From Clostridia bacterium (GTDB lineage Bacteria; Bacillota; Clostridia; Lachnospirales; Lachnospiraceae): DNA of 64,000 bases. Under the pieces are notes generated by a model. It saw nothing but the letters and a program-made list of their open reading frames with translations. It was not told where the DNA came from and ran no database searches. The DNA lies in contig CAJTDE010000003.1 of NCBI GenBank assembly GCA_910574835.1, forward strand, positions 1-64,000, given 5' to 3'. Made by a program: the position numbers and the translations under genes. Shown here piece by piece: positions 1,776 to 19,384 of this stretch. Each line of letters begins with the position of its first letter. The stretch's first letter is position 1.

Positions 1776-2690
1776 TTATTGATTCTTATATAATAAATTT
1801 GTTAATTCTGTAACAGTAATTTTTCCATTTGTATATTGTTCCCAGATATCATCATAATTCAGATTTCTTATGTGGGCAACTAATTTACCAGGAGATTCAT
1901 TGTGCAAGCAAGTGGATAAACCTTCATTTATCTTATCCATGATGAAGTTCAAGGATTTGATTCTGAATTTGTCTTGAAGAATTTTTCTGTACAATATATA
2001 ACTATCTGAAAGACCATCATTTCCAAAGTGCCAGCCTATGGATTTTGTTTTCTTTAAAAATTCAAGCCGTTTTTTCTTTAAATGAATATTAAAATCATAT
2101 CCATCGGTATTTTCAGATGTTAATAGTCCAGCAGATGTCACATCACATTTTTTTATTTTTTTACATAAGTGAAGAAAGTGTTTTTTTCTATATCCAAGCT
2201 CTTTAATATTTAAGCTAATTAGTCCATCAGCCATAAGCTCTGTTTCAATAATATTGCCATTAAATCCATATGTATATAAAATATATTTATTTCCTATTCT
2301 TTGTTTAATAACTCCCTTGACTTCTCCAATATCTAGAGCAGAAATATTTTGTTTCACAGGGATATTTTTATTTTCGTCAGATTTTTCTTGGGTATACTGC
2401 GGCTGAAGGTAAATATATGCTTGCCCATAGCTCAATAGACTATGCATTATGCTACTAATAGTTTGTTCAAGTTTATAATGCAAATTGTGATAAGTTGTAG
2501 CATATAAAAGAGTTTCTGCAATACATCCTTTTGGCTCAAAAGCGAAGAAATCCTTAGTTGTATCATTTTCACCTAAAATAGAAGAAAAACCGGTTGACAA
2601 ATCTTCAAAAAACCGGTATGAATATGGATTATTTGATAATGAATGATATAGCCTTTTAACACTTTTTTTCGTTTTAAATGGATTATGCAT
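1776..2690 (-). CDS. Unknown 304-residue protein, second gene of a two-gene accessory system
   Basis: The ATG at 2690 overlaps the last 8 bases of the upstream 814-residue gene, and its ribosome site (GGGAGGA) lies inside that gene, so the two are translationally coupled. The protein is mixed alpha/beta, lysine-rich, and has no clear transmembrane segment or catalytic motif. A region near residues 88-97 (SYGQAYIYLQ) is faintly reminiscent of phage portal-type folds, but this is too weak to use. The sequence is notably AT-rich compared with the carB side of the window, suggesting acquisition. Position beside a tRNA cluster and coupling to a membrane protein suggest an accessory or defence role; no function can be assigned. 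Confidence 0.6.
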   Translation of the reverse strand: MHNPFKTKKSVKRLYHSLSNNPYSYRFFEDLSTGFSSILGENDTTKDFFAFEPKGCIAETLLYATTYHNLHYKLEQTISSIMHSLLSYGQAYIYLQPQYTQEKSDENKNIPVKQNISALDIGEVKGVIKQRIGNKYILYTYGFNGNIIETELMADGLISLNIKELGYRKKHFLHLCKKIKKCDVTSAGLLTSENTDGYDFNIHLKKKRLEFLKKTKSIGWHFGNDGLSDSYILYRKILQDKFRIKSLNFIMDKINEGLSTCLHNESPGKLVAHIRNLNYDDIWEQYTNGKITVTELTNLLYKNQ

Positions 2691-5127
2691 TCAGCTTATC
2701 CTCCCAGGAATATCTTGTACGAAATTTTTTCTCTTCTGGCAACATCGGATTGATGCAAAGTACCCAATATACTTCTGATGGATCTGTAGTAAATCCCATA
2801 CTTTCAAAGTTTTGACAAAAAGCATTTAGTAATTTGCTTTCTGTTTTTAACTTCATGCCAAATAAATCATATTCTGTTTGATATATTTCAGAATTTTTAA
2901 TTGCCTGCGCTACTCTTTGCTTCCATTCAGTTTCAAGAAAACCTCGATATCCAAAACCAATCCAAGATTTATCTCTGTCTTGAATGTATTTGATGAAAGT
3001 TTCAGCAAGTTCTGTTCCTTCAGAATCGTCAGTAAAAATTTTCGCAGTAACAGTGTTTACAATTTCTTTCCAGTCTTTGTTTGAATTGAACTCACCCCAC
3101 AATATGGCCAGTCCACCTATTTGAGCCCATTCTGCTATTGGGGAAGTAAATGCGTAATATACAAATTCTATTTTATACACATCCTTTTTCTTTATAAAAT
3201 CTGTTCTAATATATTCTTGATATAAAAGCATAAGCTTGGACAGATTTTCAAAGTCTACTTGAAACTGCGAAATATTGTTTTGAGTAATGGCGTTTATAGC
3301 ATCATCACAAATGTGGTTATAGCTTTCACCAAGGAAGTCTGGATACTCGTCTCTCTTTTCCCATGTTTTAATGGAAAATTCACTTGAACATTTAAGTAAT
3401 AAAGACGGAATCGTATTTTTCCATTTTTTAATTGTCTGCTTTAAAATTTCGACTTTTAGTTCATCCCAAATAAGTGCCTGATCAATATGGTATTCAGAAA
3501 ATTCTTTTTCTTTAAGCTCTATTACTTCCAAAAGTCTTGAAAGTTTAGATTCATATTCATAAAATCTCAGAGAAATTATACAGGACTCAAATAACATTTT
3601 CTTTTCATAAAGATACTGACCTAATCGGAATGAGTTATCGATACCCTCTCGGATTGCATCTATTAAGCTGTTAATATATACATGCGCTTCTTTTGCTACA
3701 TTTTGCGCAATTAACCAATCTGGCGTTAGACGCTTTTTTTCGACTTGTATTTCTGTTATGATTTTATTATAGAAATCTAGTTGCTCTTTTCCTCTGAACA
3801 GTTCACATTTATCGAGAGGTTTACCTTTGTCAATTATACTGATTGCATTTGATATAAATTTTTTTATATCGAGGTTTTCACAATATTTTTTAGATTCCAA
3901 AACAATACCTAAATAAAGCAAAGAGATTTGTTCTACAATTCCAGCAAAAATTTTGTTTTCCTCATCATCTTGTTTTTCGATGTCTGTTGCTAACTTTTCT
4001 ACAAGTTCCCGCAGGTAGTTAATTTGATTGACAAAATAGTTCACTTCCTTACTATTTATTGCGATTTCGCATATAGTGTCAAAGCATGATAAATATGTAT
4101 ATAGTGAGGAATAATTACTGGTTTTACACAAATACAAAATACATTTCCGATTTATTGAAAATATTTCATTCTCAAACCACCAATAATCATGTTCTGCTTT
4201 AGAAGGTAAAATTGTTCCAGTTCTTAGTGCAGTGGAGGTCTCTATACTGTCTGTAAGATGCCATTTCTGATATTTTTGAGTATTTCTGAACCAATAAGAA
4301 TCTCTTGGAATATACCTCTTTATTTCCCAATAAGCCTCCACGAGTGCAAGATTTTTACACATGAATTGTATCATTGTAGCAATATTATTTTCAGCTAAAG
4401 ACTCTCCAAAACGCTGGATTTCATTTAAAAGTTTAAATTGATTCTCACAGATTTTTTGAAAATGGTTTTGGAAACTTGCATCATTTGAATATATTTTTTT
4501 ATTTAAGTTATTCGAGATAATTCTATATAGGAGTCTATAAGAATCATCTGCTACACTATAAACGTCTGCTAACTGATAAGCTCTATTTCCTGCCACACTA
4601 TAAGATATAATAACTACAATAGACCACAATATGATTGTGAAAACGGTTCCTAAACTTAAAGAACAATCTATAAGGATTTCTACAATTACAATAAATCCAA
4701 AGATAATATAATCAATAATTACACTGATGCATCTTTGGGTTAATCTGTCGCATTGAAATGCATTTGATACTGCTGCAGGGGCATTTGCATATTTAGATGA
4801 ATATATGGAAGAAATATTAGCACAATATAAACCCAATATGACACCTGCTATGCTCAGACAACCAATAACGACAGCTGTAAAAATACTACCATCAATTTTG
4901 GCCAAACATTCCGCTTCCAATAGGATTCCATCAAGAAACAATAAAAAAAGTGCAATAATAATACCCTTAATAAGTCCTAATATTGCTTTCTTGGCAATAA
5001 CAAGGCTGAAAGGGGCATAATCTTTGGGAATACTAATTATACTAATACTTCCATATATGATGGTTTTGAACTTAAAGAGTATACTTAACATTCGTTTCCT
5101 TAATTTCCAATATGTTTTACTGTTCAT
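2683..5127 (-). CDS. Unknown 814-residue protein with an N-terminal four-helix membrane domain
   Basis: The ATG at 5127 follows AGAGGGT. Four hydrophobic segments lie at about residues 47-70, 82-104, 134-156 and 158-182. The second has a GCLSIAGVILGLYCANI pattern, followed by a loop and then a long, probably cytoplasmic, helical region of about 630 residues rich in K, E, I and Y. The membrane part faintly resembles DUF2254-like proteins. No catalytic motif was recognised. Its stop overlaps the start of the 304-residue gene by 8 bases, so the pair is an operon. The AT-rich composition and the tRNA-proximal site suggest horizontal acquisition. A membrane-anchored sensor or effector paired with a soluble partner is a reasonable but unproven reading. 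Confidence 0.65.
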   Translation of the reverse strand: MNSKTYWKLRKRMLSILFKFKTIIYGSISIISIPKDYAPFSLVIAKKAILGLIKGIIIALFLLFLDGILLEAECLAKIDGSIFTAVVIGCLSIAGVILGLYCANISSIYSSKYANAPAAVSNAFQCDRLTQRCISVIIDYIIFGFIVIVEILIDCSLSLGTVFTIILWSIVVIISYSVAGNRAYQLADVYSVADDSYRLLYRIISNNLNKKIYSNDASFQNHFQKICENQFKLLNEIQRFGESLAENNIATMIQFMCKNLALVEAYWEIKRYIPRDSYWFRNTQKYQKWHLTDSIETSTALRTGTILPSKAEHDYWWFENEIFSINRKCILYLCKTSNYSSLYTYLSCFDTICEIAINSKEVNYFVNQINYLRELVEKLATDIEKQDDEENKIFAGIVEQISLLYLGIVLESKKYCENLDIKKFISNAISIIDKGKPLDKCELFRGKEQLDFYNKIITEIQVEKKRLTPDWLIAQNVAKEAHVYINSLIDAIREGIDNSFRLGQYLYEKKMLFESCIISLRFYEYESKLSRLLEVIELKEKEFSEYHIDQALIWDELKVEILKQTIKKWKNTIPSLLLKCSSEFSIKTWEKRDEYPDFLGESYNHICDDAINAITQNNISQFQVDFENLSKLMLLYQEYIRTDFIKKKDVYKIEFVYYAFTSPIAEWAQIGGLAILWGEFNSNKDWKEIVNTVTAKIFTDDSEGTELAETFIKYIQDRDKSWIGFGYRGFLETEWKQRVAQAIKNSEIYQTEYDLFGMKLKTESKLLNAFCQNFESMGFTTDPSEVYWVLCINPMLPEEKKFRTRYSWEDKLNA

Positions 5128-5318: not shown

Positions 5319-5801
5319 TCACAGATTCTGCCGGATAATCCGGGTAATGATCCCCACAGCCACGCCCCGTTCTTCATCAATCCGGGTGACGGCAAAGCTC
5401 ACATCATCCTTCTTGCCGGGAGTCCGGTAGTCATAGCAGGAGTGGGCCACAGCGTTCACGCCGTTGGACAGCCGGATATAGACCACGCCTTTATGTACGT
5501 CCGTGACCTTGCCGGCATACTTGCTCTGGATGCGGCATTTTTTCAGGTTGTCATGGTTGGTGTTCTGGGACACGCTCTTGATGTCAGCCTTAATTCCCAT
5601 ATCCTCCAGGCTGTCACGGCGCACGTTCAGGATGCGCACAAGCACCTGGTCGCCCACGGAAAAACGCTCATGGGCATCCCCGATCCACTCCCAGGCCAGG
5701 TCGCGGGCCATGATGGAGCACTCCACTCCGAAAACCTCCACCCGGATGACCTTCTCTGCCACGGCGATCACGCGGGCCTGGGCAATGCGGCCTGAATGGT
5801 A
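5319..5801 (-). pseudogene. C-terminal fragment of a mobile-element S1 RNA-binding-domain protein
   Basis: The open frame runs from a TAG at 5802-5804 to 5319, about 160 codons, with no ribosome site; a GTG at 5771 is the only start-like codon nearby. The encoded C-terminal part carries an S1/OB-fold RNA-binding domain (about residues 80-150; CRIQSKYAGKVTDVHKGVVY onward), as found in longer S1-domain proteins of Lachnospiraceae conjugative elements. From memory, those continue upstream of the residues GRIAQARVIAVAEK seen here; the homology breaks at about 5790. Immediately upstream lies a promoter and structured leader (5833-5946). The gene therefore looks like a deletion product that joined the leader to the last third of the coding region. 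Confidence 0.7.
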
Positions 5802-6066: not shown

Positions 6067-6471
6067 TTAAACACTGATAACAAAAGATTCGTTATAATAC
6101 GGAATCAAAGTATCATGTGTCATAAATTTCATTCCTTCTGATTTTGCCTGCGCAAGCAAAATCCTGTCAAAAGGATCTTTATGCGGTGGAGCATCCTTTG
6201 GCCTTACCAAAGATTCCAGCTCAGCCACATGTTTATTAAATACAGGCAGCGAGACAAAACCATTCTCTTCACATCCTTTCTCCAGGTATTTCCCACTAAA
6301 TAAAAATGTTTCCGGATGTGCCATATGCTTGATTGTAATCTCCCACACGGAAGCGGTACTGTAATAGATTTCATTGTTCTCGTCAAGTATCATTGCCCTG
6401 GCTGTATTCGACAATTCCTCCGAATCCAGTACTGCCCATATTGCAATATGTGTATCCAGCAAAATCTTCAT
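6067..6471 (-). CDS. PIN-domain ribonuclease toxin (VapC-like)
   Basis: 134 residues from the ATG at 6471; an upstream TTG is possible but the ATG has AGGTGGA in place. The acidic residues of a PIN-domain RNase are visible: D6 in LLDTHIAIW, E44 in SVWEI, D99/D102 in HKDPFDR and D120 in THD. Known VapC toxins cleave tRNA or rRNA with Mg2+. The start codon overlaps the stop of the upstream antitoxin gene by one base (TGATG), the usual toxin-antitoxin arrangement. The length is normal for the family and the gene appears intact. Confidence 0.88.
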   Translation of the reverse strand: MKILLDTHIAIWAVLDSEELSNTARAMILDENNEIYYSTASVWEITIKHMAHPETFLFSGKYLEKGCEENGFVSLPVFNKHVAELESLVRPKDAPPHKDPFDRILLAQAKSEGMKFMTHDTLIPYYNESFVISV

Positions 6472-6725
6472 CAACCATCCACCTCAAATAATCTGGCTAT
6501 TTCATCATTGCACTCGTCTATATCATGACCATCCGCAATAAATTTCTGCCCTTTCATACTTCCAAGCCTGCGTTTTTTGCCCTGTGTGACAACGCCATAA
6601 TTTATACTCACACTCCTTGACTCTGATGGCAGCACAAAGCGCTGTATCATATCAAGAATAAAGCGCAGGCTGTCATCCGAAAGTCCTTCCAGAGATTGTG
6701 TAATCTGATTCTGCAATGTTGACAT
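6471..6725 (-). CDS. Antitoxin partner of the PIN toxin
   Basis: 84 residues. The ATG at 6725 is preferred over the longer frame because AGAAAGGTGG lies just upstream. Only a weak family resemblance can be seen. The N-terminal half (STLQNQITQSLEGLSDDSLR) is helical and could form the DNA-binding or dimer part. The acidic C-terminus (DIDECNDEIARLFEVDG) is typical of the disordered tail that wraps a PIN toxin and occludes its active site. It is translationally coupled to the toxin. Autoregulation of the pair is expected from the family; no operator was recognised here. Confidence 0.75.
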   Translation of the reverse strand: MSTLQNQITQSLEGLSDDSLRFILDMIQRFVLPSESRSVSINYGVVTQGKKRRLGSMKGQKFIADGHDIDECNDEIARLFEVDG

Positions 6726-6894
6726 AACAGACACCACCTTTCTACATGATTTAGAAAACATATATCTGATTAAATCTTTACCTTCTGTCACGGTTTTATT
6801 ATACTAAAGAAACCGCTTTTTATCAAGAATATCCAAATTAACATTACAATGGTATGGATGGTTGTATAAAAATACTGGCATGAAAAATATTATT

Positions 6895-8138: not shown

Positions 8139-8342
8139 TTACAGCCCCTGGCATGGGCGCATCCCAAAATAGTTTTCCATGCGGTCCCGAAGCCTTTCCG
8201 CCGACATATCATATTCCCCGGCAATACAGGATTCACAGCACGGGTATTTGTAAGCCAGGGTTTTCGATAACCGGGCATCCCAGCTGTTTAACTGTCTGCC
8301 GCATTTGTTGCAGTCCTGATCCAGCCATCTTACTTTCTGCAA
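8139..8342 (-). CDS. Small zinc-ribbon-like mobile-element protein
   Basis: 67 residues starting at a TTG (8342) behind GGAAGGTGG; an in-frame TAA at 8367-8369 excludes a longer form. The cysteine pattern CNKC ... CCESC in the first 45 residues suggests one zinc ribbon. It is followed by a short amphipathic helix (SAERLRDRMENYFGMR). The gene lies between the leader RNA/attenuator (8506-8693) and the clamp-motif gene, whose ribosome site abuts its stop codon. It probably forms one leftward transcript with that gene. Function unknown. Confidence 0.6.
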   Translation of the reverse strand: MQKVRWLDQDCNKCGRQLNSWDARLSKTLAYKYPCCESCIAGEYDMSAERLRDRMENYFGMRPCQGL

Positions 8343-8505
8343 TCGCTCTCCACCTTCCTTTCTTCCTTATGAATGTTGTTCTATCCCTATAAGCCTTCCA
8401 GCTTTCAGGCAGCAAAAAAAGCAGAAATGACTTTCTTATTCCTGGCGTCCGCAGTTTCCTGTGAACCCATGTCATTCCTGCTCTGAAAAGAGATAATAAA
8501 ATTTT

Positions 8506-8557
8506 CCAAAATAAAACCAGCGGTATATCACTTACAGGACGTAGTGATACTGCTGGT
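8506..8557 (-). terminator. Intrinsic terminator at the end of leader RNA copy 2 (possible attenuator)
   Basis: On the minus strand ACCAGC (8552-8557) pairs with GCTGGT (8516-8521), and inside it TATCACT (8543-8549) pairs with AGTGATA (8526-8532). TTTTATTTT follows directly. It lies between the structured leader and the first downstream gene at 8342, as in attenuation systems. Confidence 0.65.
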
Positions 8558-8580
8558 ACAATCATACAAACTTAACAGCG

Positions 8581-8777: not shown

Positions 8778-8923
8778 AAATATTTTACTTCCTTTTGAAA
8801 AGGTGGTATTATTGCATAATTTAAAATATAAAGCATACTTCTATGTAAGTCACATAAACTGCATCAACTTAAAACAGTTTTTTCTCCAAATAATAGCTAT
8901 TGTTTATTCTTTAACTCGTTAAA

Positions 8924-11900
8924 TCAATAAGTCTGCGTATATGATTGCACACAAGTTTTCATCATCAGTGTTCCAAATCGTTGCTCCAATATTCCAATAT
9001 ACTCCTTTTTTATATACAATTCAGTTCCACTATATAATGGAATTGCATTTCCAGGATACTCACTGTCACCTTTATAACTCGATGACCATTTTTTCATAAT
9101 AAAGATGATCTCATTTTCCTGATTGACGGCAATATATCTTCCATGCCAGAAATCAAATTCAATATGAACATTAAGCAGTTTAGAAACTGACATTCCAGGC
9201 CACAGATAATTTTCATCTTCTAATTCTCGATCTAATGTATTAATAGAATTAATCAGTGCTTCCGAATTATCTGAAACCATATAGATTTCTCCTTCTTCAA
9301 CCGCTGTGGCTAAACATTGTTGGAATGGATTCTGATGTTCTTCATCACCCTCTCCTACTATTCCTTGATATGCAAATACCAAAGATGCTTGTTTATAATC
9401 GATACGTTTTCTTGTCTCAGAGCATCCGATTAGAATGTATTCATCCTCATTATTTTTAAGAAAAGGCTCACAAGAATTATTCTTATCATATAGATGATTT
9501 TCGGGTTGCATTACACGACACTTAAATAATCTATACATCCCCTGATAGTCAGGCATCAATCGGAGCAAATTCTGTGGAATCAACTCGGGTTTTCTGTCCA
9601 AAAAAGCTTTTTCAATGATTGCATGAAGCGCATATTGAATTACATATGATTTGTACACGGTATTTGTTTCAGGAATCTTACTCGACCCTCCAACAAAATC
9701 TTGTATTTTATCATTCAGTATCCTTGAGGCATGTAGTTTTTCATAGAGTTCTACATAGTTAATACCACAGGTATTGGCCACCTGCATAATTGGATCCCGA
9801 TATACTGAATTCTTAGCATATTCATCAGCTCCTTCTCGAGTCGCTACTTTCCCAAGATCATATAGTTGTTCTGCTAAGTAAAACTCAATATCCTCCTGTT
9901 CCATATAATCAGGTGTATGTTTGTCAGAGCACTTTAAAAGAAAACCTTTATATATTGTAAATTTCGAAAATATGACATCCAAAAGCAGATTTCCAGTTGG
10001 ATATACTGCATTAATTGCGTTTATCATTCGATCTTCATTCAAATTTTTTAAATAATTTCCATAACATCTTACTAAATCTGCGATTGCTATTTGTGTCACA
10101 AGATTATACTGTTCATAATGCTCTAGACAAAATACTATTGATTCCGTGAATTCAGAAAAATTCTCTTCTTCAGCAGCATTCGCCAAATAAGCATAAGTTG
10201 CCAGAAACGATTCCTTACCTCCATCAATGAATCGCATTAATAAGCAGTTACGTAATCCTAATAGTTCATCTGCTTCTTCCAAAACATTATCAATAGGATA
10301 CTGATCAAGATTTGGAAAACGAAGCTTCATAATATCAAATACACTTCTCCAAATCGTGATAATACTATCCTTATCAAATCCAATCGCAAAAAGTGCATCC
10401 AAAAGACCCTTTGTAATTCTACCCGAATGTGAAATAATAACTTCAGGTAATTCACGATAAAACGTGTCTCGACCCACATCTGAACTCAGTCGTATACTAT
10501 TGAGAAATTCATCCTTATCAATTAAAGAACTTCCCCATTCATATGAATAAAGATACATCAACATGTGAACTTCTGACATTTCTTTATTATCCAATTCTAA
10601 ATGCTCAATGATTTGTAAAACAGTATTCTTATGCCTCTGACTATAGCTCCACCCACCGACTTTAGTAATTATAAATCTCAGTATCTCAAGTAAAGTATCT
10701 TTATCATTCTGGTAATTCTCAAGAAATCCGCAGATATCTTGTATATCTCGCTCAATTAAATCATGTGTTTCAAACCATTTCTTTGCCTCCTCTAAGGTTA
10801 AAGCTGCAAAATGCATTTGATTGTGCTTTAAAACATCAACAGTTTTCTTACCACCCTTATTGTCCGTATCATCGGTTTTCTTTATACGGAAATATTCTAT
10901 ATACTGTGAAACATCTAATCCTGCTGACTCAACTGTTAACAAGAATTCTTTAATACTTCCATTTTTCCAAGAATCATTGTCCGGCCAAGGGCTATCAAGA
11001 ATATTAAATCTTGAAACAACATTGATAACAAGTTCATTCATACGATGCTTGATCAGTAATTTTTCATCATCGCTCGCCCCTGTGTACATCTGCTCTAGTG
11101 TTCTAAATACAGATGTGGCCGCATCAATTATTCTTGGACTTGCATCATTTGGAAGCGACTCAATCAGACCGATTACAATATCCAAATAGCCAGAATCATT
11201 GCAATACTTTTCTATAGCAGAACATAACATACGCTCCACAACCCAACTTTTTCCCTGCTTGATCTGTAACTCGGCCAGGAATGCAAGTGCATACTTCGAG
11301 TCTGTTTTGAGCAATTTATCAAACCAGTTGTTTAAGAAGTGCTTTGTTTCTCTTCCATCAGTATGATTCCAGACAGCTATTGTCATTTTCGTTATTGTAT
11401 CGCGTTCCTCTTTTGGCTTTCCTACAATAGATTCAAAAAATATGTTATAAGAATCCATAATCTGCTCCAAAATAATATCCTTGTGATATCCATATGCAAC
11501 AAGATAACGTGTACACATATCAAAATGCTCTAAAGCCTCAGACTGATTATACTTTGAAATAAGACTAACAAAGCGCAGCTTTGCCGCAGCTATGCAATCA
11601 TATACCTCATTTTTTTCTATTTTCTCCTGCGTCCTTAATAAATAAGGTTTTACAATTTCATAATTATCAATAGTTAGGAAACAAGATATTAACTCCAAAA
11701 ATTCTGCATCAGTTAATGGACCTCCCATGCTATGATCCAAACTTGTTCCAGTTTCATCATCAAGCCGTTCGAGAATACCCAACGCTTTCTCCAGATCCTC
11801 TACTGTCCCATTTTGGACAATCAGTTCTACCGCCCGTTCATATGACTTTGTTAACTCATTCTGAAGAAAATACAAATCACAAGTACGTGGTTCTCCCTTG

Positions 11901-14764
11901 AAAACTTCCGTATCCTGCAACAATAGTTCCAAATTAGTAATCGCTGATTCACAGATTGTTTTAGAATCCATTTGTGCTGTGTGTGCACACAATTCTGCCA
12001 TCTTGACAGAATAGATTATCCAATTATAAAACCAGTTAATATTTTCACAATCTGTACAGACTGTCTCTATAACTCTCCTATCCCCCTGATCAGCGAGATA
12101 ATATATTTGTGAAAATAATTCTTTAAAAATCCTTATATCTTCTTCTCCTGGCATCCTCAGTGTTTTGATTTTTTCCCAGTTTCCAATTGCGATCTCAAAG
12201 GAAACTTCACTTTGCGAATAATATCCAGTCTCAATATATGAAAGATAGTTTTTCCAATGAATCAGTTGTTGCTCCTCCGCAATTGAAGCAATTTCATTAA
12301 ATTCTATATAGTCCTGTAGTTCATCATACGCAATCTCAATACATTGGTTTCTTATTGAAACCTTTTCTTTTTCTATTGCCTCCATAAGCTTAGGAATGAT
12401 ACTAGCTCCCTGTTCATCAAGATAATATCTATAATAGTATTTAAGGTCCTCAATCTTGTACTCTTTAGCCTCTGTATCTAAATACAGTTCCCACCAAGGT
12501 GTAATACCAGCTTTCGAAGAAATATAGCACGCAATTCGGCCTGTATTCATATCAAAGGTTTGTTTTCCATCAATTTGCATTAACTGATTTAGTTTAGAAG
12601 CACCCTTTATATCACATATTGCTTGGAAGTATTCTTCTCCAGTACTTTCGAATTCGTTCATATCATCAAGCATTGCCAACAACTCACCAGCTGTTACCAA
12701 TGCAATCAAATTTTGGGTTCTACCCGCGCTCCGAATAATACAATTCAGGTTCATTCTTATACGTTTTCGAGAATAACCCTCTGAGACTGATTTAAGAACA
12801 AATTCTTTCTCAATCAATTCTATATTTTCAACATCCCTCTTGATTTTATACTGTAGTTCAGTAAGATAATAAAAGGACTTATCAAATTCAAAAAAAGGTT
12901 TCTTCTGTAGCCAATCAGCAAGTATACCATAGACATTTCTCTCTAAATCAACCTTTTTATCTTTTAATGAAGCTAATACAAACCGGCGGAAACTTTCATG
13001 ATAGACCGAAAAGCCACCGCTTAGTATATTTTCTATCAATAATGGATGAAGCACTGATATATCTTGTTCTACAAATTCTCCATCTCCAGTAATCTCCATT
13101 AAATCATCTAAACTAAGATAAAAATCTGCCCCACAAAGTGCATTAACCGTACGGTTGTTACGAACCTTTGTATATAGATAGGAATAATACTTAGATAGAT
13201 TGATATCATAGTCAGGTATTTCGTCTATTAATTCTTTATTTACATCTAAGTTTCGTAATTGACGCAGAATATAACCAAGATATAAAGCATTTCCTTGAGA
13301 TTTCTTAAGTAGATATACACTTATTGATGAAATATCATCATCTTTAATATTGTCATCATTAATCTGAAAAGATGCCATCAAGGATTTTACTTGTTCAATT
13401 CCCCATGGCTCAATCTCAAATACACTGTAGTTCTTTCCCTTAAACTCTTCAATTTCATCTATTGGCTGTGATGATATTATCACATAGCAATTATCAGGAA
13501 AATGTATTTCCAACAGTTCAGAAATGATTTCAGTTTCAGAGCGTGAAATAAGATCTTTATGTAACTCATATTCTCTGGATATATGATCAAGGCCATCTAC
13601 TACTAAATAAAATTCCTCTCCAATGAGTCGAAGCAGATTTTCAAGTTCTGCTTTATCAGCGCCAAAGGTTGTATTCTTATGCTCAACTAATTCTGGGCAT
13701 TGCTCCACAATCTGAGAAACCAGATTGCCATATAAAGAAGTTACACGTATTCTCTCAAGACTATTTGTGTCCTGTAATGACTGGAAGCAATTATAATGAA
13801 TAACTTTACTGTCATCATTCTCAAGTTTATCTATATATTCATCGACAAGCCAAGACTTTCCAGATCCAGGGTTGCCAACAATAATAACACGTTTTGAATC
13901 GCAAATCACTCTGTGTAACCTTTCAATCTCATCACCAAGTATAATCTGATGCGCTGAATCCACTGGAAATCTTTGATCAAATTTCCCATAATCCATTATT
14001 AATCCAAGACGCCCCACTAATATATTTGAATAAAGTCTGTTCCCCATCGCTCTAGAATGCTTCACTTCTGTTGCAAGTTTATAAATAATATCCTCTACAT
14101 TGAGAGCATCATTTGGGTATATTCCTACACCTAATTTTTCAACTTGTTGAATAATTACATTTTCCAGGGTACCAGGATTCTTTAAATCGAGACTTGCTTT
14201 AGGCATTTCCAGAATAATCGCGAGTTCATTGCAAAATGATAAAAAGTCTTCTCTATCGATAAGCCCTGACTTAATCGCTAAATTAAACTTTCTCCACGTT
14301 TTTGGAGGTAGGCTTTCTGCTGGCCAAAACACCTCGCCATCAAACGAATATGCAGCAACCGAAAAAGGCAGAGTTGGTTCTTGAATAGGTTTCAAAAACT
14401 CTGCAATTGGATCATCATCAGTAGGTCTGTTCCACGCAAGGCACAACTTTATCTGTGTATCATATTCAGATTCTTTTCTCCTTTTCCAAGAAGCAAAAAG
14501 ATCGCATAACGCAGTATCGTGTCCATTACCATTTGCAAGGTCATCTTTAGTAAGTTTATGAGAACTTTTATCATCAGAATACTTAATCTGAAATTCAGTA
14601 GTACTATTAGATGTCTTCACCTTTAAATCGTCAAATTTATCTCCGCTGAAATCCTTACGATCAATAATAAGTTCAGAATCTGTCTGGTGAAGCATCAGTT
14701 GTAAAATTATTGAAACTGTAAAATAATCCTGGTATTCATATCCTTCATGGATTGGACTCTGCAT
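8924..14764 (-). CDS. Avs-like antiviral STAND ATPase with N-terminal Cap4/DUF4297-type nuclease
   Basis: 1946 residues; the ATG at 14764 follows GAGGAGGT. Residues about 1-220 resemble the Cap4/DUF4297 endonuclease: E9, D45/D46 (FDDLKV) and Q59-x-K61 (EFQIKYSDD) fit the Mrr-like D-QxK active site. A STAND NTPase follows: Walker A GNPGSGKS at 297-304, Walker B YLVVDGLDHI at 386-395, and a sensor-like YVIISSQP near 427. The remaining roughly 1300 residues are helical and repeat-like, with no transmembrane segment. In known Avs (AVAST) proteins this C-terminal part recognises a phage protein (terminase or portal), which triggers tetramerisation and DNA cleavage. The DUF4297-STAND order matches AVAST type 3, but orthology is not proven; it could be another nuclease-STAND lineage. 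The coding region is AT-rich and lies beside AbiE remains. Confidence 0.85.
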   Translation of the reverse strand: MQSPIHEGYEYQDYFTVSIILQLMLHQTDSELIIDRKDFSGDKFDDLKVKTSNSTTEFQIKYSDDKSSHKLTKDDLANGNGHDTALCDLFASWKRRKESEYDTQIKLCLAWNRPTDDDPIAEFLKPIQEPTLPFSVAAYSFDGEVFWPAESLPPKTWRKFNLAIKSGLIDREDFLSFCNELAIILEMPKASLDLKNPGTLENVIIQQVEKLGVGIYPNDALNVEDIIYKLATEVKHSRAMGNRLYSNILVGRLGLIMDYGKFDQRFPVDSAHQIILGDEIERLHRVICDSKRVIIVGNPGSGKSWLVDEYIDKLENDDSKVIHYNCFQSLQDTNSLERIRVTSLYGNLVSQIVEQCPELVEHKNTTFGADKAELENLLRLIGEEFYLVVDGLDHISREYELHKDLISRSETEIISELLEIHFPDNCYVIISSQPIDEIEEFKGKNYSVFEIEPWGIEQVKSLMASFQINDDNIKDDDISSISVYLLKKSQGNALYLGYILRQLRNLDVNKELIDEIPDYDINLSKYYSYLYTKVRNNRTVNALCGADFYLSLDDLMEITGDGEFVEQDISVLHPLLIENILSGGFSVYHESFRRFVLASLKDKKVDLERNVYGILADWLQKKPFFEFDKSFYYLTELQYKIKRDVENIELIEKEFVLKSVSEGYSRKRIRMNLNCIIRSAGRTQNLIALVTAGELLAMLDDMNEFESTGEEYFQAICDIKGASKLNQLMQIDGKQTFDMNTGRIACYISSKAGITPWWELYLDTEAKEYKIEDLKYYYRYYLDEQGASIIPKLMEAIEKEKVSIRNQCIEIAYDELQDYIEFNEIASIAEEQQLIHWKNYLSYIETGYYSQSEVSFEIAIGNWEKIKTLRMPGEEDIRIFKELFSQIYYLADQGDRRVIETVCTDCENINWFYNWIIYSVKMAELCAHTAQMDSKTICESAITNLELLLQDTEVFKGEPRTCDLYFLQNELTKSYERAVELIVQNGTVEDLEKALGILERLDDETGTSLDHSMGGPLTDAEFLELISCFLTIDNYEIVKPYLLRTQEKIEKNEVYDCIAAAKLRFVSLISKYNQSEALEHFDMCTRYLVAYGYHKDIILEQIMDSYNIFFESIVGKPKEERDTITKMTIAVWNHTDGRETKHFLNNWFDKLLKTDSKYALAFLAELQIKQGKSWVVERMLCSAIEKYCNDSGYLDIVIGLIESLPNDASPRIIDAATSVFRTLEQMYTGASDDEKLLIKHRMNELVINVVSRFNILDSPWPDNDSWKNGSIKEFLLTVESAGLDVSQYIEYFRIKKTDDTDNKGGKKTVDVLKHNQMHFAALTLEEAKKWFETHDLIERDIQDICGFLENYQNDKDTLLEILRFIITKVGGWSYSQRHKNTVLQIIEHLELDNKEMSEVHMLMYLYSYEWGSSLIDKDEFLNSIRLSSDVGRDTFYRELPEVIISHSGRITKGLLDALFAIGFDKDSIITIWRSVFDIMKLRFPNLDQYPIDNVLEEADELLGLRNCLLMRFIDGGKESFLATYAYLANAAEEENFSEFTESIVFCLEHYEQYNLVTQIAIADLVRCYGNYLKNLNEDRMINAINAVYPTGNLLLDVIFSKFTIYKGFLLKCSDKHTPDYMEQEDIEFYLAEQLYDLGKVATREGADEYAKNSVYRDPIMQVANTCGINYVELYEKLHASRILNDKIQDFVGGSSKIPETNTVYKSYVIQYALHAIIEKAFLDRKPELIPQNLLRLMPDYQGMYRLFKCRVMQPENHLYDKNNSCEPFLKNNEDEYILIGCSETRKRIDYKQASLVFAYQGIVGEGDEEHQNPFQQCLATAVEEGEIYMVSDNSEALINSINTLDRELEDENYLWPGMSVSKLLNVHIEFDFWHGRYIAVNQENEIIFIMKKWSSSYKGDSEYPGNAIPLYSGTELYIKKEYIGILEQRFGTLMMKTCVQSYTQTY

Positions 14765-14823
14765 TTAATGACCTCCTCACATCAACACTAAATATATCAA
14801 CTTATTAATTCTTTCCTTGTTAT

Positions 14824-14919
14824 CTAAACTTTTTCAATGATTCCGGATGGTATACACAGTTCATTAGAAGCAGCAACAATAAGTTCGCTAAATGCCTCGC
14901 GGTCATGATATAAATTCAT
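14824..14919 (-). pseudogene. Truncated AbiEii toxin: first 31 codons only
   Basis: From the ATG at 14919 the frame reads MNLYHDREAFSELIVAASNE and on to SGIIEKV before a TAG at 14824-14826. This matches the conserved N-terminus of AbiEii/AbiGii nucleotidyltransferase toxins, which normally run about 300 residues. The start overlaps the end of the AbiEi gene by 17 bases, as in intact abiE operons. The catalytic part is gone, apparently lost where the Avs-like gene now begins. Confidence 0.75.
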
Positions 14920-15528
14920 AAATAATTCCCCATTTAATCAGTTTTTTTGCAGTCGGACCCGTAATGCCGGACAGCACGCTGAAAAGAAGCTCCTTACTGT
15001 AATTTTGCTGTTTTGCATAGTTTTTCAGAAGAATCCCGGTTTCTAAAGCAGAAAGCTCAGAATGCTTTTCTGCCTGGGAAACGGCATCCAAAAGCTGGAG
15101 CAGTCCAGCGTTTTCCGATGTTATAGTCGTGGTGGGTCGTTTCAGCCGGATGGCCTGGGAGCCTACGGTGACTGTACGCCCTTTTGTCGATTCTTTTGAT
15201 GTGATGATCTCCAACATTGCCGGCATCTGGGTTGTCAGACCAATCTGATTGGCAAAAGTGGCTCCGGCAAAGTATCCATAGGTTTCTGTTGTACTTTTGA
15301 TATATTTGCGTACAATGACTTTCATGGGATCTAAATAACTTTTTTTCAGTAGCCTTGACGCTTTGGGGAGATAATAAATCCCCGTATCAAAACGGGCTAG
15401 GTCGCCTGATTTGAGCATCCGTTTGAAATACTGGCGCAGAGCATTGTCATTAAGCCCATCCAGACGGATCTCGTTAATGAAAATCGGTTCGTTGTAACCA
15501 TAGTTTTTTCCAGATATTCCTTCAGCAT
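14903..15528 (-). pseudogene. Frameshifted AbiEi-type antitoxin (DUF6088)
   Basis: The ATG at 15528 (behind AAGGAG) opens MLKEYLEK, then a run of six T at 15504-15509 (A on the coding strand) shifts the frame. The next frame continues NYGYNEPIFINEIRLDGLND to 14903. Adding one A would give about 208 residues, the usual DUF6088 length, with an N-terminal winged helix, GIYYLPK, and a C-terminal AbiEi region. AbiEi proteins repress their operon and neutralise AbiEii. The frame break plus the truncated toxin downstream show a decayed system. A homopolymer sequencing error or -1 slippage on the A-run cannot be excluded. Confidence 0.75.
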
Positions 15529-15589: not shown

Positions 15590-16630
15590 TTAGGAGTTCA
15601 TCAAATGTTCTGCCTTAATTGCATATCCATATGCTTCCAAATTGACTTTACGCAAATATTTTAATTTTGCCATATCTGCGGTATAAAACTTTTGCGTGGA
15701 AAATTCCATAGGATCTTCGATTTTCTCATAAGACTGTCTCTTTAACAGGCATGCAGCCATATACATGACTTTGGCAGCTCGTCCCACTGCCGTTTCCGGA
15801 GAATAGTTCTCTGCATAAATATGTCCCCTCAGATCACGTATCCCCTGTACATATAAAGGATACTCTTCCGAAGAAAGAGTGCCGCGGGATGCAATACAGG
15901 CTGCCGACATATATGTATCCTTAATTGCGTCCCCTACTGTTATGTTATTCCCCCGATAGGAAATCTCTTCCGCTGCCACTTTAAAATATGTATCATATAC
16001 CAGATTAAAATCTGTAAATTCGTCCAGCAATGTTCCGACATCGTACATCTGCTTCATCACTTCCATATCTTTTTTTGCATTTAACGGAATCCCTGTTGTA
16101 TGTGGCGCAAATGCCGTCAGTTTATCACCAAGAATACAGTTGATATCCGGCGTTTTTACTAGCAGATATTCTGGCTCAGTTAATAATAAATCATTCCTTA
16201 TTTCACAGTCCACCACTCTGGTATAAGGGTTTTCAGCAAATAAAATATCCAAAAGAATATAGATATCTTTTCCAGTGATCGGAGACTGGTAGGTAAATTT
16301 AAAATGCCTCTTTTCAATGCTGTTTCTACCAATGCGCACCTGTTCCTCACATTGTTTAAATGGAAATATTGTTGATGCTTTAGAAATATATGTGTCCACA
16401 TCAGTATCCGGCTCAACAACAATATCTATATCCGTAGACAGTCTCATAGGATGCTTTAACAAAAGAATCAGACAGGTGCCTCCTTTAAAAATAAACGGCA
16501 TTTCTACCCGCCTGATTGCCTCTAACAAGCCAAACGCAAATACCACCCTTTCTAAAAGCGCAGGATCTTTTTTGCTTTGTTTCTGTAACATCCGGATATG
16601 TGATTCATTAAAGTTTTCTTTCGTGAGCAT
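15590..16630 (-). CDS. AbiEii/AbiGii-family nucleotidyltransferase toxin
   Basis: 346 residues. Near the N-terminus are the polymerase-beta-type motifs of AbiEii toxins: FKGGTCL (GGT at 50-52) followed by STDIDIVV (D67, D69). Family toxins of this fold transfer nucleotides onto RNA (for example tRNA acceptor ends) and cause reversible growth arrest. A later lysine-containing segment (ILGDKLTAFAPHTTG, about residues 165-180) matches the conserved GDK motif. The gene starts five bases after the DUF6577 gene ends, forming a two-gene operon under the palindromic sites at 17386-17503. It appears intact. Confidence 0.88.
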   Translation of the reverse strand: MLTKENFNESHIRMLQKQSKKDPALLERVVFAFGLLEAIRRVEMPFIFKGGTCLILLLKHPMRLSTDIDIVVEPDTDVDTYISKASTIFPFKQCEEQVRIGRNSIEKRHFKFTYQSPITGKDIYILLDILFAENPYTRVVDCEIRNDLLLTEPEYLLVKTPDINCILGDKLTAFAPHTTGIPLNAKKDMEVMKQMYDVGTLLDEFTDFNLVYDTYFKVAAEEISYRGNNITVGDAIKDTYMSAACIASRGTLSSEEYPLYVQGIRDLRGHIYAENYSPETAVGRAAKVMYMAACLLKRQSYEKIEDPMEFSTQKFYTADMAKLKYLRKVNLEAYGYAIKAEHLMNS

Positions 16631-16634
16631 AAAT

Positions 16635-17372
16635 TTATTTCTCCGTTCTGAGTTTTATTCTTGTCTGACTCTGGATGATTTTCATAATATCATCTTTTAC
16701 ATGTCGTCGCTTTGCATAACGGAACATCTGGCTTTCATCAATAATATATTTTTGAAACGCCTGCTCCAGTACACCTGGATATTCTGCCTCACTAAAGGTT
16801 GTCTTTATCACTTTCTCTGCGGTCATATCAACGAGCATTTTTTCAAGACAGGTATGCCATACAGCCTTCTTTCCTTTTGGTGCTTCTGTCAGCAGCTTTC
16901 CTATAATGATAAGATCATCCTGCCAATATAGATGATATTCCTTTACAGAAGGATTTAATAAAACCTTTCCTGGAAATTTTTCTTTCAATGTTTCAAACAC
17001 AAAATCACCCAAATCTGCCTCAACAGACACAAAGACTGTATTATGAGCAATCTGGTGGTTTAAAAATTCATTCATCTGTACCAGTTCAAAAATCCGGTAT
17101 TCTAAAAAAGGATGTCTTTCATAAATCAATTTTTGAATAATTACTGCAAGCTCCGAATACTCATAATCATATATCGGCACCTGGTTATCCGGAATACAAT
17201 ACAGATTCCTCCCAACTCTCGCAATTATCCCTGATTCCAACAAGCGCTGCATTTTCAATTTATAAGACGCCAGGCTCAGCCCTTTGTACTGCTCTTCTAA
17301 AACCCGAAAAAGCTCCTGCCTGTCAAAAGGCTCCTTATTTTTTAATAGAAATATACCGCTGTCATTGATCAT
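16635..17372 (-). CDS. DUF6577-type AbiEi-like antitoxin and probable autorepressor
   Basis: 245 residues from the ATG at 17372, behind GGAGATG. The N-terminus (about 1-65) looks like a winged helix: PFDRQELFRVLEEQY ... KMQRLLESGIIARVGRNLYCI, the same layout as AbiEi N-domains. A longer alpha/beta C-terminal part follows. It directly precedes the AbiEii toxin gene, in the order antitoxin then toxin. By analogy with AbiEi, which binds inverted repeats in its promoter and represses the operon, this protein should bind the two palindromic sites just upstream. The DUF6577 label is from recall of family pairing with AbiEii and should be confirmed. Confidence 0.78.
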   Translation of the reverse strand: MINDSGIFLLKNKEPFDRQELFRVLEEQYKGLSLASYKLKMQRLLESGIIARVGRNLYCIPDNQVPIYDYEYSELAVIIQKLIYERHPFLEYRIFELVQMNEFLNHQIAHNTVFVSVEADLGDFVFETLKEKFPGKVLLNPSVKEYHLYWQDDLIIIGKLLTEAPKGKKAVWHTCLEKMLVDMTAEKVIKTTFSEAEYPGVLEQAFQKYIIDESQMFRYAKRRHVKDDIMKIIQSQTRIKLRTEK

Positions 17373-19287: not shown

Positions 19288-19384
19288 AAGACTTGCAGAA
19301 AAACAGCCCTCCGAAATGGAAGGCTTATTTTGTATCAAAGTTTGTCCCTTTAGACAGCCTAGCTGGGGGGATTGGGGTTTTCAA

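Follow-up and report, generated by a model that had tools for sequence, protein, structure and literature searches.

Results

Gene and domain organization

The window, that is, the whole 64,000-nt stretch of gut-bacterial DNA analysed here, holds on its minus strand the gene P0001, read directly as a single intact open reading frame with an ATG start that encodes 1946 residues (Table 1). Its ribosome-binding site is separated from the start codon by 7 nt. Some relatives have a short upstream reading frame, whose start codon is absent in the window copy. The full-length nearest homologs, from Candidatus Scatomonas (L017), Coprococcus sp. (L018) and Lachnospiraceae bacterium (L020), share 85-87% protein identity with P0001, and the 1946-codon frame is kept in all three. 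Among these four sequences, pairwise dN/dS over the whole gene amounts to 0.16-0.18, with values of 0.10 for residues 251-740, 0.16 for the nuclease part and 0.25 for residues 1751-1946, and with a local peak of 0.59 at residues 1801-1860. The gene is thus under purifying selection and conserved far beyond chance, as expected for a maintained protein, with the constraint being loosest at the C-terminal end.

Table 1. Features of the P0001 locus, with positions given in the window and residues in the protein.
Feature	Position	Strand	Basis
P0001 gene, 1946 codons: Cap4-type nuclease, Avs1b-type STAND ATPase and sensor	8924..14764	-	
Ribosome-binding site AGGAGG	14772..14777	-	same in 6/6 aligned upstream regions
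Putative Cap4/DUF4297-type nuclease domain, residues 1-250; PD-(D/E)xK by motif	14015..14764	-	PF14130
Predicted nuclease active site, D46 ... Q59-x-K61	14582..14629	-	invariant in 58/58 N-halves
STAND/NACHT ATPase with winged-helix part, residues about 270-610	12935..13957	-	NPHP3_N, NACHT and Avs1b match
Walker A GNPGSGKS, residues 297-304	13853..13876	-	direct reading; G300, G302 and K303 invariant in 58/58
Walker B YLVVDGLDHI, residues 386-395	13580..13609	-	direct reading; D390, G391, D393 and H394 invariant in 58/58
H589 of YHESFRRF	12998..13000	-	invariant in 58/58
Conserved sensor core, residues about 885-1210	11135..12112	-	second conserved block in relatives; aligns with group-2 sensors
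More variable sensor part, residues about 1211-1600	9965..11134	-	conservation lower over much of the part
C-terminal module, residues about 1601-1946	8927..9964	-	encoded by the adjacent gene in some relatives; dN/dS higher than elsewhere in P0001
Shared unit, 88-89% DNA identity to other Lachnospiraceae loci	8920..14815	-	block ends at the edges of the gene

In regard to the N-terminus, the Pfam model Cap4_nuclease (PF14130) matches residues 7-78. The match passes the gathering cut-off of 26.2 bits when residues 1-250 are scanned in isolation (26.8 bits) and falls under it on longer queries (22.3 bits for the N-half, 18.4 bits for the full protein), while among isolated N-termini of family members 5/32 are matched at E<0.01. 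Residues G8, Y9, Q12, D45, D46, Q59 and K61 are invariant in 32/32 aligned N-termini and in 58/58 N-halves, P0001 included in both; one of these 58 rows, L091, groups with the set of relatives described below as group 2. Both the Pfam match and the GYxYQD ... DD ... QxK pattern liken this region to Cap4/DUF4297 nucleases, whose known partners are SAVED in CBASS, HerA, and SMC in Lamassu; P0001 differs from them in that the nuclease is fused to an Avs1b-type STAND receptor. PADLOC models of LmuA, HamA and the SAVED-PDDEXK effector were matched by 10, 7 and 7 of the 58 family members, respectively, the matched regions being unspecified. Searching the PDB with the nuclease profile gave no convincing nuclease, and the one antiphage protein among the matches listed was 8zue (E 0.16). 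The identification of the N-terminus as a Cap4-type nuclease, PD-(D/E)xK by motif, is nevertheless supported by the invariant residues and the Pfam match.

Residues 289-463 match NPHP3_N (6e-11, 43.2 bits against a cut-off of 24.8) and NACHT (3e-6, 27.5 bits against a cut-off of 26.7), as do 57/58 and 55/58 family members, respectively. H589 could perhaps be the STAND sensor histidine, MHD-like in kind. In the sensor core of P0001, conserved motifs are KD at residues 1095-1096 and HTDG at residues 1134-1137. The original prediction, made from the same DNA, had described a single 1946-codon gene, strand unstated, joining a nuclease with D46, Q59 and K61 to a STAND ATPase and a long C-terminal part. 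The gene is borne out, on the minus strand; the three nuclease residues and both Walker motifs prove exact by direct reading, and the union of the three parts in one protein is supported by sequence profiles. By conservation, the C-terminal part, predicted there as a helical sensor of roughly 1300 residues, divides into the core, the less conserved stretch after it and the separable module listed in Table 1.

Relationship to Avs1b

Scanned alone, P0001 gives no match to any of the Avs models of PADLOC and NCBIfam, and its link to Avs1b rests on family profiles. The NCBIfam Avs1b model is matched by 42/55 family N-halves (best 2e-21), with no other Avs model among the 25 of 50 NCBIfam models listed for these 55 sequences, and PADLOC Avs1b is matched by 27/58 family members (best 8e-27); in L056, which was scanned whole, the PADLOC match falls in the STAND part. 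As the Avs1b reference set, AVAST type 1 loci of Priestia (L106), Cupriavidus (L110) and Chimaeribacter (L111) were used, all of which carry annotated avs1a and avs1c, with the big protein annotated as avs1b in one and as serine protease in two. The family profile scores 99.8% (E 3.3e-28) against the three Avs1b proteins over 435 columns, corresponding to P0001 residues 273-738, and 99.5% (E 2.4e-22) against one Avs1b. Compared directly with Avs1b, the family sensor profile is not significant (0.3%, E 0.2).

The connection between the sensors comes from group 2, comprising 17 further relatives with a Cap4-like N-terminus in which the D, Q and K positions are conserved. In profile comparisons, group 2 scores 100% over 668 columns against the P0001 family (99.3% for the sensor), and 100% over 1261 columns, sensor included, against Avs1b; the PADLOC Avs1b model is matched by 17/17 group-2 proteins. 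The sensors of the P0001 family and of Avs1b may thus be related, with group 2 as their sole link. Viral contigs (L097, L098), a Klebsiella plasmid (L102) and an E. coli plasmid (L107) were also seen to encode giant Cap4-like STAND proteins resembling group 2, the two plasmid-borne ones annotated merely as ATP-binding protein. Searches of 274 gammaproteobacterial and 398 same-phylum genomes with Avs1b models and proteins found little.

In a midpoint-rooted STAND tree of 47 rows, the P0001 family forms one group (99/94), while the three Avs1b proteins stand together (100/99) beside 12 group-2 rows (96/84). L081 falls just outside Avs1b and these 12 rows, and L097 and L102 fall with the P0001 family, which means that group 2 does not form a single clade. 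With any root outside the Avs1b branch, such a topology would derive Avs1b, with its protease, from within a set of proteins carrying nucleases; because of the midpoint rooting, this origin is suggestive only.

The family profile was also compared with three Avs2 proteins (NF041813; L118, L119), STAND defence proteins that are shorter than P0001 (1405-1420 aa vs 1946 aa). The STAND profile scored 15.7% and the sensor 5.0%, the latter over the C-terminal 71 columns only, and on these scores membership in Avs2 was dropped. Whatever models of AVAST types 4 and 5 the PADLOC and NCBIfam libraries may contain, P0001 matched none of them in the scans. PDB sequence searches for the family returned no Avs chain among the matches listed (in one case the best 60 of 186), and the PDB copy searched does include an Avs2 chain.

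A separable C-terminal module

Among 68 family loci, 61 contain an ORF of 1500 aa or more and were kept as full-length; the other seven (L015, L019, L044, L048, L050, L064, L076) are broken or truncated and were left out. The C-terminal module is fused in 43/61 of these relatives and is the next gene in 15/61; in L077, L078 and L079, three of the 18 non-fused loci, neither a fused nor a separate module was seen. Thirteen of the 15 separate modules are ORFs of 283-389 aa that overlap the stop codon of the main gene, and of the other two, one is in two pieces (L052) and one is matched over about its first third only (L075). One split relative is located on Pseudoalteromonas pMEGA (L010), where the partner has 287 aa. 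The split-partner HMM matches the C-terminus of 43/43 fused proteins and has no match in the 18 remaining main ORFs; in P0001 the match covers residues 1848-1936 (E 1.8e-5). Likewise, profile comparison of the 13 split partners with the fused C-termini gave E 7e-32, with controls at 0.46-0.75. Two of the split partners (P0005, P0006) had no match in a PADLOC scan. The idea that the split partner is Avs1c was rejected, as annotated avs1c has 82-94 aa and it is the fused C-terminal module to which the partner shows a match. In the STAND tree, split forms are found both among proteobacterial/campylobacterotan rows and among actinobacterial ones; these lie apart, which, judged by eye, suggests at least two events.

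The fused C-termini of the family were further compared with those of group 2 (E 8e-5), Avs2 (4e-4), Avs1b (0.015) and Avs3a (0.044), and in all four cases some 55-80 residues align close to the C-terminal end. For the split partners, the values were 2e-4 with group 2 and 0.17-0.61 with Avs1b, Avs2 and Avs3a, and for group 2 with Avs1b 0.28, with the alignment falling elsewhere; controls for the C-terminal comparisons lay at 0.28-0.75. A short cap in common with Avs2 is possible, while a short end domain common to all Avs types is only hinted at, given that not all pairs agree.

Distribution and mobility

The homolog scan, of which 80 out of 94 confirmed places were kept (16 of the 80 being of group-2 type), extends the P0001 family to records from at least ten phyla, nine of them in the STAND tree in addition to Cyanobacteriota. 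At close range, its presence is patchy. In the genus, the gene occurs in 1/16 genomes, that is, in the source genome only, and in the family Lachnospiraceae in 6/299 genomes, a figure that includes the source genome as well as one broken copy and one remnant. The shared block stops at the borders of the gene: its upstream end falls at 14810-14819 in five loci, which is 46-55 nt ahead of the start codon, and its downstream end at 8906-8928 in four loci, the sequence of L019 ending inside the gene. In Lachnospiraceae the gene appears as a lone 5.9-kb unit, which has spread by itself to unrelated loci. The broken copy (L015, 7168-9704) and the remnant, in which only a C-terminal piece is left (L016, 8639-8871), suggest decay after transfer. 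GC content in 2-kb steps is 34-40% over the gene and 44-51% beyond 20 kb. In comparison with a genome whose carB is about 97% identical, synteny is lost at window position 19384, and the contig of that genome continues only about 6.5 kb.

In L020, the P0001 homolog lies between the same tRNA block and small gene (5319-5771) that in the window flank a different, two-gene cargo, which points to a shared cargo hot spot. The two genes (1776-5127, minus strand, beside tRNA-Ser) encode 304 aa and 814 aa, overlap by 8 nt and have no Pfam, PADLOC or NCBIfam match above cut-off; the 814-aa protein has hydrophobic N-terminal stretches. Given its hot-spot position, the pair is a defence candidate.

Gene neighbourhoods

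Context was scanned for 20 relatives, taking no more than two ORFs of 150 aa or longer per side and excluding ORFs >1500 aa and one split partner. The 75 neighbours thus obtained were set against 75 control ORFs from distant places on the same contigs, from which ORFs >1500 aa and the last four were excluded. At E 1e-10, neighbours matched 215 PADLOC models and controls 9, a difference that is overstated, as the models are redundant and the counts refer to models and not to proteins. Among the 25 models listed for the neighbours were Gabija GajB, DRT helicase, SoFic and viperin, and the neighbours of the first member included a match to type I restriction specificity. In the window itself, an AbiE-like group adjoins P0001 (14903-17372, minus strand), with an AbiEii nucleotidyltransferase (15590-16630) between AbiEi-like genes at 14903-15418 and 16635-17372. 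A possible VapC-type PIN toxin with antitoxin was noticed by eye at 6067-6791 on the same strand.

Discussion

The description of P0001 as Avs-like in the original prediction is supported and can be sharpened. The protein, which at that point could not be placed in any Avs clade, now finds its place, with a STAND ATPase that belongs with Avs1b as the closest known relative. The search for homologs, proposed together with that prediction, has produced a family of relatives, and their surroundings do not agree with the case in which all of them would sit in non-defence contexts.

Kinship with Avs1b does not make P0001 an Avs1 system. Avs1b of AVAST type 1 has the STAND ATPase and the region that follows in common with the P0001 family and is of similar length (1910-1939 vs 1946 aa), but its own N-terminus is a trypsin-like protease where P0001 has the Cap4-type nuclease. 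Furthermore, avs1b is accompanied by avs1a (MBL fold) and avs1c, and neither is found beside P0001. None of its nine scanned neighbours matched an avs1a-like MBL protein, the upstream position being taken by the AbiE-like genes. With regard to avs1c, which has 82-94 aa in the three reference loci, the first 120 nt downstream of the gene in L017, L018 and L020 gave no ORF of at least 60 aa, and the nearest same-strand ORF in the window of at least 80 aa (8233-8565) is 358 nt off. As protease, avs1a and avs1c are all missing, and as Avs3a and Avs2 do not fit either, P0001 would rather represent a new form of antiviral STAND protein, Avs-like in design and akin to Avs1b through the shared switch.

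We consider it quite probable that P0001 is a single-protein STAND defence receptor built on the Avs1b scaffold, with its own Cap4-type DNA nuclease in place of the protease. Gene integrity, selection, domains, invariant catalytic and Walker residues, common STAND descent with Avs1b, spread and neighbourhoods are the parts of this model grounded in sequence. Ligand sensing, oligomerisation, DNA cleavage and an abortive outcome are most likely by analogy with known Avs proteins. According to the proposed model, the ATPase would keep P0001 inactive in the resting cell until its C-terminal sensor is bound by a protein from an infecting phage or another mobile element. The STAND domain would then bind ATP and oligomerise, whereby the N-terminal nuclease domains could meet and cleave DNA. 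This would halt the invader, and probably the cell with it. A receptor that contains its own nuclease would need neither a nuclease nor a protease from another gene, which fits a gene travelling alone. The viral ligand is possibly different from those of known Avs proteins.

Alternatively, P0001 could be a STAND nuclease directed against plasmids, conjugating elements or host damage instead of phage proteins. Its mechanism would be identical up to the ligand, on which the sequence is silent, and three relatives are located on plasmids. We nevertheless give this explanation a small chance, because proteins of this kind are reported to respond to phages: Avs proteins are described as sensing phage proteins, recognising terminase, portal or others and cleaving DNA (PMC12931631), and an Erwinia Avs1 system as being activated by phage terminase (PMC12799240).

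It is very unlikely that P0001 is an ordinary AVAST type 3 protein (Avs3a) sensing the large terminase as Avs3 does, even though the order of domains is the same. AVAST type 3 has a DUF4297/Cap4-STAND architecture, with the large terminase as ligand, and Avs3a resembles P0001 in uniting a nuclease, a STAND part and a long C-terminus in a single protein, the two being of similar length. Between group 2 and one Avs3a, the profiles score 95% (E 3.5e-8) across N-terminus and STAND, which makes all these proteins distant cousins. However, the curated Avs3a model (NF041816) has no match in the genome of P0001 even at E 10, P0001 itself lacks any Avs match, and similarity of the family profile to one Avs3a (L120) is weak, at 36.6% (E 4e-4, nuclease active site outside the alignment) vs 99.5% for a single Avs1b. 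Membership in Avs3 is thereby largely refuted and was dropped, Avs1b being the closer relative.

A STAND protein without immune role, acting for example in host regulation or programmed cell death, would be compatible with evidence that consists of sequence only. We regard it as highly improbable in view of the patchy presence, the spread among unrelated loci and the defence-rich neighbourhoods. Finally, that P0001 and the AbiE-like genes, which adjoin it on the same strand and of which L016 has a homolog (35% identity to the 14903-15418 protein) near its P0001 remnant, make up one composite system is hardly credible, since no AbiE-like homologs were found in the loci of L015, L017, L018, L019 and L020 (about 0.5 kb upstream being covered in L017, and L019 ending in the gene), and a fixed AbiE partnership, largely refuted by these loci, was dropped.

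Returning to the single-protein receptor on the Avs1b scaffold, a wider reading could be put forward, which we regard as tentative and rather doubtful as a whole. The P0001 family might be a separate, as yet unlabelled antiviral STAND branch in which the C-terminal module serves as a detachable subunit for recognition, fused in some lineages and supplied as a translationally coupled partner in others. It would be read by an Avs1b-type engine equipped with a Cap4 nuclease or with a protease and a separate pro-nuclease. Avs1 might then be a Cap4-STAND protein with a swapped effector, and the ligand of the P0001 family might be neither terminase nor portal.

PADLOC 2.0 and NCBIfam scans gave no model specific to the P0001 family, and no description of it was found in the CC-licensed PMC literature by title or abstract start. 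A 2022 survey of Avs proteins reportedly listed many N-terminal effectors, so the family may have been noticed earlier. With the present placement, a widespread family of giant nuclease-STAND proteins would gain its place, and one STAND switch would tie together two effector strategies, a built-in Cap4 nuclease on one side and a protease with a gated MBL nuclease on the other. The natural split of the C-terminus in separate lineages would make the exchange of ligand specificity in bacterial NLR-like sensors directly testable.
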